From: Kiritimatiellia bacterium
Lineage (GTDB): Bacteria; Verrucomicrobiota; Kiritimatiellia; RFP12; UBA1067
Reading direction: 5' to 3'
NCBI GenBank assembly: GCA_028700415.1
Contig: JAQVSS010000013.1
Location: 1 to 32,897, forward strand
DNA length: 32,897 nucleotides
Positions 29,630 through 32,897 of this stretch are shown here, piece by piece; positions within the stretch are counted from its first letter, which is position 1, and every line of letters starts with the position of its first letter. Below the pieces are notes generated by a model that was not told the DNA's origin, did not search any database, and was given only the letters and a program-made list of their open reading frames with translations. The translations under genes were made by a program, and so were the position numbers.

Positions 29630-29670
29630 TTTTAAATGATCGTGTGAGATCTTGAAAATGGATATTGTCG

Positions 29671-31233
29671 ATGAGTAAAGCTGAACCTGTCAAATCGCTG
29701 GAAAACTGGATCTGGGATGCCGCCTGTTCCATCCGCGGGGCCAAGGACGCCGCAAAATTCAAGGATTTCATTCTGCCGCTGATCTTCACCAAGCGGCTGT
29801 GTGATGTCTACGATGACGAGCTGAACCGCATCGCCAAGGAGGTCGGTTCCCGCGCCAAGGCTTTCAAACTGGTCCGGCATGACAAAAAGCTGGTCCGCTT
29901 CTACGTGCCGCTGCAGCCCGCCGACCCCGAGGACGCCGTGTGGTCGGTCATCCGCAAGCTCTCGGATAAGATCGGTGAAGGCCTCACTTCCCATCTCCGC
30001 GCCATCGCGGACGAGAACGCTCTGCTCAAGGGCATCATCGACCGCGTGGACTTCAACGCCACGACCCACGGCGTGCGCGATCTCGACGACACCCGGCTTT
30101 CCAACCTCATCGAGCGCGTCAGCGAAAAGCGGCTCGGGCTGGACGATGTGGAGGCCGACATCATCGGACGCAGCTACGAATACCTCATCCGCAAGTTCGC
30201 CGAAGGCGGCGGCCAGAGCGCGGGCGAGTTCTACACGCCCGCAGAGGTGGGCGAGATCATGGCGCGGATCATGGACCCCGAGCCGGGCATGACCTGCTAC
30301 GACCCCACCTGCGGTTCGGCGGGTCTGCTCATCAAGTGCGAACTGTTCATGGAGGAGAAGCGCTACCCGGTGGGCGCATCCGCCAAAGGCCGCAAGCCCG
30401 CGCCGCTCAAACTCTATGGCCAGGAGTCCGAACCGACCACATGGGCCATGGCCAACATGAACATGATTATTCACGACATGGAAGGCCTGATCGAAATCGG
30501 CGACACCTTCCGGCACCCCAAGTTCCGCAAGGGCAACCGGCTCCAGACTTTCGACCGCGTGGTGGCCAACCCCATGTGGAACCAGACCGAGTTCGCCGAG
30601 AAGGACTACGACGCCGATGAACTGGGACGCTTTCCCAAGGGCGCGGGCTTTCCGGGCAACAAGGCCGACTGGGGCTGGGTGCAGCACATTCTCGCCAGTC
30701 TCAACGAAACCGGACGCGCGGCCGTAGTGCTCGACACCGGCGCGGCCTCGCGCGGCTCCGGCAACGCCAACACCAACAAGGAGAAAGAGGTGCGGCGCTG
30801 GTTCGTCGATCATGACCTGATCGAGGGCGTGATCTATCTGCCCGAAAACCTCTTCTACAACACCACCGCGCCGGGCATCATCCTTTTTCTGAACAAGGCC
30901 AATCCGCACCGGGGAAACATCTTCCTGTTGAACGCCTCAGCCGAGTTCGCCAAGGGCGACCCCAAAAACTACATCCCCGCCGAGGCGGTGCGGCGCATCG
31001 CGGAGACCTTCGGCACGTGGCACGAGGTTGAGAAATACAGCCGCATCGTCACCCGCGAAGAGATCGCCAAGAACGACTACAACATCTCGCCCAGCCGCTA
31101 CATCCACACTGGCGCGGGCGAGGAATACCGGCCGCTGGAGGAGATCGTGGAAGAGCTGGACGCGCTGGAGGCCGAGGCGCGGGCGACCGACAAGGCACTG
31201 AGGAAGATTCTGGAGAAGTTCTTGGGTGCGTGA
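29671..31233 (+). CDS. hsdM: type I restriction-modification DNA methyltransferase subunit M (HsdM, second locus)
   Basis: 520 residues from the ATG at 29671 (GGA nine bases upstream; an in-frame TTG lies two codons earlier). The N-terminal HsdM helical domain reads LENWIWDAACSIRGAKDAAKFKDFILPLIFTKRL. The methyltransferase domain has AGEFYTPAEVGEIMARI, motif I YDPTCGSAG near residue 209, and motif IV ANPMW near 298 in place of NPPF, a variant common in this HsdM subgroup. The C-terminus is a coiled-coil-like helix (LEEIVEELDALEAEARATDKALRKIL). It is a different subfamily from the HsdM at 209–2365, so the two loci are not recent duplicates. It is followed by repeats, a YhcG-like gene and hsdS. 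Confidence 0.96.
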   Translation: MSKAEPVKSLENWIWDAACSIRGAKDAAKFKDFILPLIFTKRLCDVYDDELNRIAKEVGSRAKAFKLVRHDKKLVRFYVPLQPADPEDAVWSVIRKLSDKIGEGLTSHLRAIADENALLKGIIDRVDFNATTHGVRDLDDTRLSNLIERVSEKRLGLDDVEADIIGRSYEYLIRKFAEGGGQSAGEFYTPAEVGEIMARIMDPEPGMTCYDPTCGSAGLLIKCELFMEEKRYPVGASAKGRKPAPLKLYGQESEPTTWAMANMNMIIHDMEGLIEIGDTFRHPKFRKGNRLQTFDRVVANPMWNQTEFAEKDYDADELGRFPKGAGFPGNKADWGWVQHILASLNETGRAAVVLDTGAASRGSGNANTNKEKEVRRWFVDHDLIEGVIYLPENLFYNTTAPGIILFLNKANPHRGNIFLLNASAEFAKGDPKNYIPAEAVRRIAETFGTWHEVEKYSRIVTREEIAKNDYNISPSRYIHTGAGEEYRPLEEIVEELDALEAEARATDKALRKILEKFLGA

Positions 31234-31245
31234 GTGGTAGAGAGT

Positions 31246-31261
31246 CTCACGCGGAGGCGCG
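31246..31261. repeat. GCGGAG-type short repeat, copy 1
   Basis: CTCACGCGGAGGCGCG matches 14 of 16 bases of the copy at 32489–32504. It lies 13 bp after the hsdM stop, in the gap before the YhcG-like gene. Confidence 0.6.
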
Positions 31262-31276
31262 AAAACGCGAAGAGGC

Positions 31277-31308
31277 TTTTTTGACAGGATGAACAGGATT
31301 TACAGGAT
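31277..31308. repeat. ACAGGAT triple repeat between hsdM and yhcG-like gene
   Basis: A run of six T is followed by three ACAGGAT units spaced by two bases (GA, TT). Very similar intergenic sequences recur, in my recollection, in many bacterial genomes. No coding role is apparent; the T-run is upstream of the repeat, so it is not a terminator tail. Confidence 0.65.
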
Positions 31309-31343
31309 CGGATGACGTTTTGATTGCCGGTGGAATGAGCGGT

Positions 31344-32468
31344 ATGGCTGAACGGAAACAGAACAAGAGCGGCGCGAAGCCAAAGGAGAACGGACTTTCC
31401 AGCCCGTCGCGGAAGCTTTACGACAAGATCGTTGTCAAAGATCCCGTGCGCCAGGGATTCTACCGCGAAGTTGCCGAGATTTTGAGAACGGCTCGGGCTC
31501 AGGCTCATCGCGCCGCGAATTTTTTGATGGTGGAGGCGTATTGGAATGTGGGCAGGAAGATTGTAGAAGAGGAGCAGTCCGGCAAAAAGCGTGCCGCCTA
31601 CGGCGAGTTTCTCATCGAACGGCTTTCGGCCAAACTCAGGGAGGAACTGGGGCACGGTTTCGATGTGACGAATCTGAAGCGGATGCGGCAATTCTATGTC
31701 TTGTTTCCAAAAGGTGCTACAGCGTGGCACCTTTTGTCGTGGTCACATTTCAAGGCGGTTTTGCGATTAGAAAAGGCGGATGCCCGCGCCTGGTATCTTC
31801 AGGAGGCATCCGAACAGAATTGGTCGGTTCGCGCCCTTGAGCGGCAGATCGGCTCGCTCTATTACGAGAGGCTGCTGATGAGCCGTGGCAAGCGCGCGCC
31901 AGTCGAGAAAGAGGCGAAGCAAAAGACGGCTGAGGTCGCCGCGGCACCCGAAGATTTCATCAAAGACCCGTACGTGCTCGAATTCCTGGGTATTCCCGAC
32001 GCGCACCCGTTCCGCGAGTCCGAATTGGAGCAGTCGATCATCGTCAAGCTGCAGGCGTTCCTGCTGGAGTTGGGCAAGGGCTTCGCGTTCGTGGCGCGGC
32101 AGCAGCGCATCTCTACGGAGACCAAGGACTTCTTCATCGATCTCGTGTTCTACAACTACCTTCTCAAGTGTTTCGTGCTGATCGACCTCAAAACCGGCGA
32201 GCTCACGCATCAGGACATCGGACAGATGGACATGTACGTGCGGCTATATGAGGATCAGCGCAAGAATCCGGGAGACAATCCGCCGATCGGCCTGATCCTC
32301 TGCACCGGCAAAGACGCGACCGTGGTCAAGTACTCGGTGCTGAGCGAGAGCAAGCAACTCTTCGCCTCCCAGTACCGGCTGGTGCTGCCGACAGAGGATG
32401 AACTGCGCCGCGAAATCGAGCGCGAACGCGACCTCGCTGTCCGGGAACAGGAGGCGCAGTATGGGTGA
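31344..32468 (+). CDS. DUF1016/YhcG-type PDDEXK nuclease-domain protein
   Basis: 374 residues from the ATG at 31344, which has GGTGGA nine bases upstream; an ATG at 31335 and a TTG at 31320 are alternatives. The N-terminal DUF1016 helical domain runs from ~30 (REVAEILRTARAQAHRAANFLMVEAYWNVGRKIVEEE) through FYVLFP and LLSWSHFKAVLRLEKADARAWYLQEA. The C-terminal PDDEXK nuclease core is near 262–285: FFIDLVFYNYLLKCFVLIDLKTG, with Asp in FIDL and Asp-x-Lys in IDLKTG. Such proteins are frequent passengers in type I restriction operons; activity and role are not firmly established. Residues 15–21 (ENGLSSP) are encoded by a repeat also present at the start of hsdS. Its stop overlaps the hsdS start by eight bases. 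Confidence 0.9.
   Translation: MAERKQNKSGAKPKENGLSSPSRKLYDKIVVKDPVRQGFYREVAEILRTARAQAHRAANFLMVEAYWNVGRKIVEEEQSGKKRAAYGEFLIERLSAKLREELGHGFDVTNLKRMRQFYVLFPKGATAWHLLSWSHFKAVLRLEKADARAWYLQEASEQNWSVRALERQIGSLYYERLLMSRGKRAPVEKEAKQKTAEVAAAPEDFIKDPYVLEFLGIPDAHPFRESELEQSIIVKLQAFLLELGKGFAFVARQQRISTETKDFFIDLVFYNYLLKCFVLIDLKTGELTHQDIGQMDMYVRLYEDQRKNPGDNPPIGLILCTGKDATVVKYSVLSESKQLFASQYRLVLPTEDELRREIERERDLAVREQEAQYG
31385..31407. repeat. 23-bp dispersed repeat, copy 1 (inside yhcG-like gene)
   Basis: GGAGAACGGACTTTCCAG plus CCCGT matches the copy at 32517–32539 at 22 of 23 bases. It is read in frame as ENGLSSP in the N-terminal region of the nuclease-like protein. Confidence 0.85.
31709..31735. repeat. 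9-bp inverted repeat inside yhcG-like gene
   Basis: AAAAGGTGC and GCACCTTTT flank a 9-base loop. The segment encodes KGATAWHLL in the DUF1016 domain. The protein length here is normal for the family, so this may be replacement or chance rather than insertion. Confidence 0.45.
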
Positions 32469-32897
32469 AAGAAGAGAGAGAAAAGAGGCTCATGCGGAGA
32501 CGCGGAGAAAAACAACGGAGAACGGACTTTCCAGTCCGTTGAATGGCGGGTTTGAAACCCCGTTAACCGTTAGGCCTTCCGGTCATGCTCGATATGTTCC
32601 AACCGAGATAGGGATGATGCCAGAAAGCTGGCCTGTTCGTCGCTTCGATTCGGTCTTTTCTGTTCAACAAGGCAAGCAAGTTTCAAAATCCAAACGCGCT
32701 GGCGAGAATCAACGTCCATTTCTTCGGACAAAAAATGTCTTCTGGGGACGTCTCGACGTTTCTGAGCTCGACGCGATGCATTTCACCGAACAGGAAATAA
32801 ACCGCTTGGCTCTTGTAAAGGATGACTTGCTTGTCTGCGAAGGCGGCTCTATTGGGAGAACGGCAATATGGGACGGTTCAATTGCCGACTGCTATTA
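32461..32897 (+). CDS. hsdS: type I restriction-modification specificity subunit S (HsdS), 5' part
   Basis: The first 145 codons are visible; the gene leaves the window on the right. The conserved HsdS start (YVPTEIGMMPESWPVRRFDSV) is at residues 45–65, followed by the first target-recognition domain (KSKRAGENQRPFLRTKNVFWGRLD, then LVKDDLLVCEGGSIGRTAIW). HsdS chooses the DNA target for M and R. The ATG at 32461 has an excellent Shine-Dalgarno (AGGAGG, seven bases) and overlaps the end of the preceding gene by eight bases. Residues 1–44 are therefore an extension that covers three short repeats and is not HsdS-like. An ATG at 32626 or 32629 would remove it but lacks a good ribosome-binding site. 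Confidence 0.92.
   Translation, partial: MGERRERKEAHAETRRKTTENGLSSPLNGGFETPLTVRPSGHARYVPTEIGMMPESWPVRRFDSVFSVQQGKQVSKSKRAGENQRPFLRTKNVFWGRLDVSELDAMHFTEQEINRLALVKDDLLVCEGGSIGRTAIWDGSIADCY
32489..32504. repeat. GCGGAG-type short repeat, copy 2 (inside hsdS start)
   Basis: CTCATGCGGAGACGCG matches 14 of 16 bases of the copy at 31246–31261. Here it falls within the first codons of hsdS and is translated as part of AHAETR. Confidence 0.6.
32517..32540. repeat. 23-bp dispersed repeat, copy 2, with 8-bp inverted repeat
   Basis: The copy contains a perfect hairpin, AACGGACT and AGTCCGTT around TTCC (32521–32540). It is read in frame as ENGLSSP at HsdS residues 20–26. Copy 1 at 31385–31407 has one base change that breaks the stem. 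Confidence 0.85.
32548..32560. repeat. short palindrome in hsdS start
   Basis: GGGTTT and AAACCC around one base, eight bases after the previous palindrome, in frame in the HsdS N-terminal extension. It looks like a second unit of the same kind of repeat. Confidence 0.5.

Follow-up and report, generated by a model that had tools for sequence, protein, structure and literature searches.

The window, that is, the whole stretch of 32,897 nucleotides analysed from a Kiritimatiellia bacterium, ends inside a restriction operon. The gene order of this operon is probably hsdM-yhcG-hsdS-rloA-rloB-hsdR (names assigned by eye), and it is cut in hsdS by the contig end. The features concerned are the following, with positions in the window.

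29665..31233 (+): hsdM, with HsdM_N and N6_Mtase domains (Pfam); its loop lacks the BIME carried by the HGW-BRC1-1 orthologue
31344..32468 (+): yhcG, a DUF1016_N plus YhcG_C (PDDEXK) nuclease (Pfam), with a coding signature from the ATG on
31385..31408 (+): copy 1 of the repeat, in yhcG; GGAG head at 31385-31388 plus the imperfect palindrome AACGGACTTTCCAGCCCGTC; encodes ENGLSSP
32450..32454 (+): GGAGG, possible hsdS ribosome-binding site by sequence, 6 nt before ATG 32461
32461..32897 (+): 5' part of hsdS, cut by the contig end; possible starts ATG 32461, TTG 32539 and ATG 32614/32617
32490..32507 (+): second dispersed repeat (TCACGCGGAGACGCGGAG, 1 mismatch), directly 5' of copy 2
32517..32540 (+): copy 2 of the repeat, at the hsdS 5' end; GGAG head at 32517-32520 plus the perfect palindrome
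32545..32568 (-): degenerate inverted partner hairpin (GGCGGGTTTGAAACCCCGTTAACC), by sequence and fold; compare the two-hairpin elements of L088

The 18-mer GGAGAACGGACTTTCCAG matched exactly at 31385-31402 and 32517-32534, and these were its only matches in the whole window with up to three mismatches. Shuffled sequence gave a mean of 0.04 matches, and two were never reached in 100 shuffles. The fullest match between the copies spans 27 nt with 25 identical (31381-31407 and 32513-32539), and the original prediction of a 23-bp repeat with 22 identical positions was confirmed over 31385-31407. The hsdS copy is indeed a perfect hairpin with an 8-bp stem and a 4-nt loop (AACGGACT-TTCC-AGTCCGTT), as had been claimed, and the yhcG copy is an imperfect version of this palindrome. 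The predicted peptide ENGLSSP was found in the same frame in both genes, as residues 15-21 of YhcG (numbered from ATG 31344) and, in hsdS, in the frame that ATG 32461 opens. The repeat at hsdS proved longer than first described, with the inverted partner on its 3' side and the second dispersed repeat on its 5' side. Given the partner hairpin at 32545-32568, copy 2 looks like a decayed BIME or REPIN. The TCACGCGGAGACGCGGAG-type repeat has six copies in the window's genome (up to two mismatches; control, none), at loci L254-L259. An Rfam search of 31200-32897 returned no match. The gap between hsdM and yhcG holds a tandem-like motif (GACAGGATGAACAGGATTTACAGGAT, 31283-31308), which we take to be widespread between genes of environmental bacteria.

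Copy number and membership in a REP family

We counted copies by pattern search in the window's genome, which comprises 4.9 Mb in 548 contigs and is 87% complete. Two copies were found with up to two mismatches, and a third place at three mismatches lay below the reversed-pattern control. The repeat is thus not dispersed in this genome, and the earlier claim of a dispersed element, which was to be given up if only these two copies existed, is much weakened. REPs are usually abundant in their host genomes, and the high copy number that marks a RAYT-associated REP is missing here. Six Y1_Tnp matches were found in the genome, and the flanks taken with them contain none of these REPs.

A different picture emerged from a scan with the pattern GGAGAACGGRYTTTCCARYCCG over one genome per species (84,980 species), which gave 37 stretches in about ten genomes. 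Opitutia UBA4506 has dozens of copies, many of them in arrays with a period of ~102 bp, where GGAG-AACGGACTTTCCAGTCCGTT alternates with inverted GGAG-AACGGGTTTTCCAACCCGTT or close variants, which is the anatomy of a BIME. RAYT (Y1_Tnp) genes are flanked on both sides by these REPs in UBA4506 (L132) and HGW-BRC1-1 (L130), and a RAYT gene of JAFIGC (L144) is flanked on both sides by the GGAGCACGG variant. In the RAYT tree, these three lie close to each other and to RAYTs nested in HsdR (see below), with weak support within the group. The BIME anatomy and the RAYT flanks place the window's copies in a family of RAYT-associated REPs whose head is GGAG. They share with such REPs a short palindrome capped at one end by a conserved tetranucleotide (GGAG) and pairing in opposite orientation, seen in the UBA4506 arrays and, with the degenerate partner at 32545-32568, in the window; in the relatives' genomes, the same repeats flank a RAYT gene. 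The canonical GTAG or GTGG head was not found; the head was GGAG in all matches of the pattern used and GGGG in G029.

Further members were seen at other loci. UBA4506 carries long BIME arrays of the same REP family at L084, L090, L067 and L070, and G029/CAMBQV (L024-L028, L059, L079) has several copies of a related element made of two REPs, one side of which has a GGGG head (GGGGCACGGACTTTCCAGTCCGTG...AACGGGTTGGAAAACCCGTTCTCC). Viral contigs gave one match, which was uninformative.

REP sequences and RAYTs have already been described (PMC2817692), and so have in-frame REPs inside genes in 2013 (PMC3733652). The original prediction was right that the shared peptide stems from a palindromic, mobile, in-frame repeat and not from protein homology, and went too far in suggesting that the element could be undescribed, given its REP anatomy and its RAYT association.

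Translation and origin of the two copies

The YhcG domains start at residue 42 (Pfam), beyond the REP peptide. G025, which belongs to another genus in the same family, carries the two REPs in matching positions, and its YhcG reads ENGLSSP-SRKLYDK; the REP codons of yhcG differ between the window's genome (G000) and G025 at one position, which is synonymous. In G002, yhcG is 86% identical and lies in other surroundings, and KDGHADP replaces ENGLSSP codon for codon without an indel. In all comparisons among G000, G025 and G002, the 5' end of yhcG showed more synonymous than nonsynonymous change per site both before and after the repeat, although few codons are involved. Before the domains there is just one later in-frame start, GTG 31446, which falls among the conserved codons and has no ribosome site. 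From this start and the codon pattern in three genomes, we conclude that the REP in yhcG is very probably translated.

The situation in hsdS is less clear. The downstream in-frame ATGs lie at 32614/32617 and not at 32626/32629, so the extension comprises 51 codons instead of the 44 residues first given. The Shine-Dalgarno argument for translation of this extension stands, the GGAGG before ATG 32461 being the best hsdS ribosome site, but G025 does not keep the frame of this ATG, and hsdS has three candidate starts. In the G025 leader, a one-base difference makes the corresponding ATG run into a stop, and reading through the repeat into HsdS would have to begin at an overlapping GTG. Annotated HsdS relatives, found on plasmids, differ among themselves in the distance to their starts, and at least one begins directly at the PxxW segment. 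The REP in hsdS lies in the leader, where it could be translated or not.

We consider it likely that the window's copies are GGAG-type RAYT-associated REPs at the ends of a yhcG cassette, older than the split between G000 and G025, relics in this genome, and coding in yhcG. With no further copy in the window's genome, they look like relics inherited with the cassette. G025 has the pair in matching positions, and both REPs were most likely present before the two lineages parted. Several observations count against this REP/RAYT explanation, namely the low copy number, the lack of a RAYT found with this REP in the window's genome, the non-canonical GGAG head, the small number of yhcG codons, and the hsdS ATG frame that is not conserved in G025. 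A quite different account, in which both REPs are non-coding hairpins in 5' leaders, with translation truly starting further downstream and no shared peptide produced, seems unlikely overall. It agrees with the caution that REPs at the N-termini of ORFs are in many cases non-coding (PMC3733652), with the alternative hsdS starts at TTG 32539 or ATG 32614/32617, with the frame-changing indel in the G025 leader, and with the HsdS annotated from the PxxW segment. The coding pattern of yhcG from its ATG through the repeat in three genomes speaks against it, as does the position of the sole later yhcG start.

It is also conceivable, though we hold it doubtful, that recombination or transposition at both REPs placed yhcG between hsdM and hsdS. 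The window resembles the stand-alone yhcG of G002 (L094) over 31404-32510, a match that ends within a few bases of both REPs, and the gene preceding yhcG differs in each of the three genomes. However, G002 has no recognisable REP, and G025 and G002 are also partly alike in the leader that precedes the first REP, so the unit may exceed the interval between the REPs. The first reading of the locus, a palindromic element that invades proteins, is active in this lineage, has not been described and resembles the Rickettsia palindromic elements (RPEs), is very improbable by now. It would account for a repeat in frame in two unrelated proteins, and the same frame recurs in G025 and in the HsdM of HGW-BRC1-1, but the two genomic copies, the REP anatomy with its RAYT association and the earlier description of in-frame REPs (PMC3733652) oppose it. 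Chance similarity or convergence of the copies, for which a genome with only two copies might be cited, can practically be dismissed, as none of the 100 shuffles had two matches and the same sequence is high-copy elsewhere.

Under the REP/RAYT explanation, insertion into proteins would be eased by the sequence itself: none of the six frames of the REP contains a stop codon, and it can thus be absorbed into a reading frame. RAYTs most likely move REP-bounded single strands, as has been proposed before for TnpA-REP. Owing to the lack of stop codons, frame-keeping insertions would survive, for the most part in loops. A short REP such as that of YhcG would yield a short peptide that is probably inert; the yhcG REP now encodes residues 15-21, outside the catalytic domains, and evolves as coding sequence. 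Whole RAYTs would become inserted domains, presumably tolerated in chimaeras that would still function.

RAYTs nested in host proteins

The same restriction system in relatives carries larger insertions. The HsdM of HGW-BRC1-1, 73% identical to that of the window, has a BIME in frame in the N6_Mtase loop (KENGLSSPLPSNKSGLENP). The HsdR proteins of HGW-BRC1-1, the Verrucomicrobia MAG RDZR (L077) and G383 (L188) contain REPs and a complete RAYT in frame, inserted between NWK and LE(A/D)KVK. The hsdR of the window's genome (G000:C11, L156), 81% identical to that of HGW-BRC1-1 in the motor part, has the empty site NIFNWKSEEAGNLEAKVK. Upstream of this hsdR, an AAA ATPase and an RloB-like gene occupy L156 1-1402, and in G025 a similar ATPase follows hsdS (L089 7507-8001); these names were also given by eye. 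ORFs with REPs but without Pfam support (L072, L092, L064 and the + strand of L077) were counted as unproven, and a sulfatase ORF at L076 was rejected as an in-frame case, its REPs lying only before the domain.

We searched 388 genomes of the phylum, mostly MAGs, with the HsdR-nested RAYT as the query. About 160 matches were listed, many in open frames of 500-2175 aa. Fifty-two regions with long frames were taken and 53 frames read, a sample selected by length, in which the count covers in-frame insertions. In 43 of the 53, the open frame continued for ~100 or more residues to either side of the RAYT, and the HUH motif was kept in 40 of these 43 nested RAYTs. Pfam domains of one host protein lay on both sides of the RAYT in at least 25 nested frames. 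The hosts include LeuRS (4), ValRS, PriA (4), CarB, MetH (2), HypF, the exonuclease VII large subunit, a B12/radical-SAM protein, glycosyltransferases, HsdR, and Eco57I-type and MmeI-type restriction enzymes; in three further hosts, namely IspG, a creatininase and a mevalonate-diphosphate-decarboxylase-like protein, two stretches matched the host family. With hosts of so many kinds, an apparent preference of REPs for restriction genes was dropped. Loci with such insertions include the following.

Type I restriction genes in relatives, with REPs in frame in HsdM and HsdR and a RAYT nested in HsdR: L153 (G164:C8); L086 1485-5456; L074 4133-5809; L077 3-2543 (-); L188 1894-6003
Nested in LeuRS: L189, L191, L192, L193
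Nested in PriA: L202, L209, L220, L224
Nested in CarB: L217
Nested in MetH: L228, L229
Nested in ValRS: L207

In the four LeuRS genomes, which are 97-98% complete, the nested gene was the sole full-scoring LeuRS match, and all others were far weaker. The insertion lies in the editing domain between residues 364 and 373 (Thermus numbering), and the KMSKS motif is kept. Nested RAYTs showed dN clearly below dS, with synonymous sites often saturated. At the LeuRS and PriA sites, the relatedness of the RAYTs was at odds with that of their hosts, and these RAYTs were spread over several parts of the tree, a pattern suggesting that a single site was entered repeatedly. Nesting also occurs in the HGW-BRC1-1 phylum, where a LeuRS carries a RAYT in another loop of the editing domain and a PglX/Eco57I-like enzyme has a nested RAYT, the latter judged by eye. 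As a control, PF01609 transposases from 155 genomes of the phylum had no open frame longer than 646 aa among the ~150 matches listed. No Hint (intein) domain was found at E ≤ 1e-5 in the 43 nested frames scanned, and splicing is therefore not indicated. AlphaFold2 models of YhcG and of the HsdR-RAYT chimaera, made from two-row alignments, had mean pLDDT values of 41 and 34 and were not used.

On balance, we favour the view, with some reservation, that RAYTs of Verrucomicrobiota and of the HGW-BRC1-1 phylum live embedded in proteins. They would lie in frame together with their REPs and without a stop of their own, at recurrent sites that include sole copies of essential enzymes, entering repeatedly, held under purifying selection, and tolerated as an inserted domain that is not spliced. 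The window's pair would be a short, non-autonomous trace of this in a restriction operon; taken alone, it is a modest case of a kind of REP already known. REPs are usually viewed as extragenic and RAYTs as stand-alone domesticated genes. If our view is correct, nested RAYTs form a reservoir of transposases sheltered by essential genes, offer mobile DNA a way to add domains to proteins, and give a testable answer to the question of how RAYTs persist. We found no published description of whole RAYTs nested in frame in host proteins in the part of the literature covered, and a 2018 survey of the RAYT family excluded members of unexpected length, regarding them as gene fusions or errors of annotation (PMC6006769).

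Comparison with known systems

The parallel drawn earlier to the RPEs is apt, as both are palindromes in frame in unrelated proteins. The sequence and the host group are different. RPEs are also longer than the window's repeat. Inteins with homing endonucleases likewise bring a mobility enzyme in frame into recurrent sites of essential proteins, with discordant histories of element and host. In contrast to inteins, the nested frames scanned had no Hint domain, and the enzyme is a HUH transposase.

The closest match is with the REP/BIME/REPIN and RAYT (TnpA-REP) systems (PMC2817692; PMC3733652), which show the same short tetranucleotide head and palindrome of ~20 bp, the same head-to-head pairs in arrays and the same REP-flanked RAYT gene. 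The family described here differs in having GGAG (GGGG in G029) instead of GTAG or GTGG, and in the window's genome it has two copies and no cognate RAYT was found. Among the GTAG-type repeats, the verrucomicrobium Opitutus terrae has the most in-frame REPs; there too, a REP is read as part of host proteins, with DNA- and RNA-processing genes among the hosts (PMC3733652). The REP peptides described in the passages of that study considered here reach up to 82 residues, whereas here whole RAYT genes lie in frame inside host proteins.
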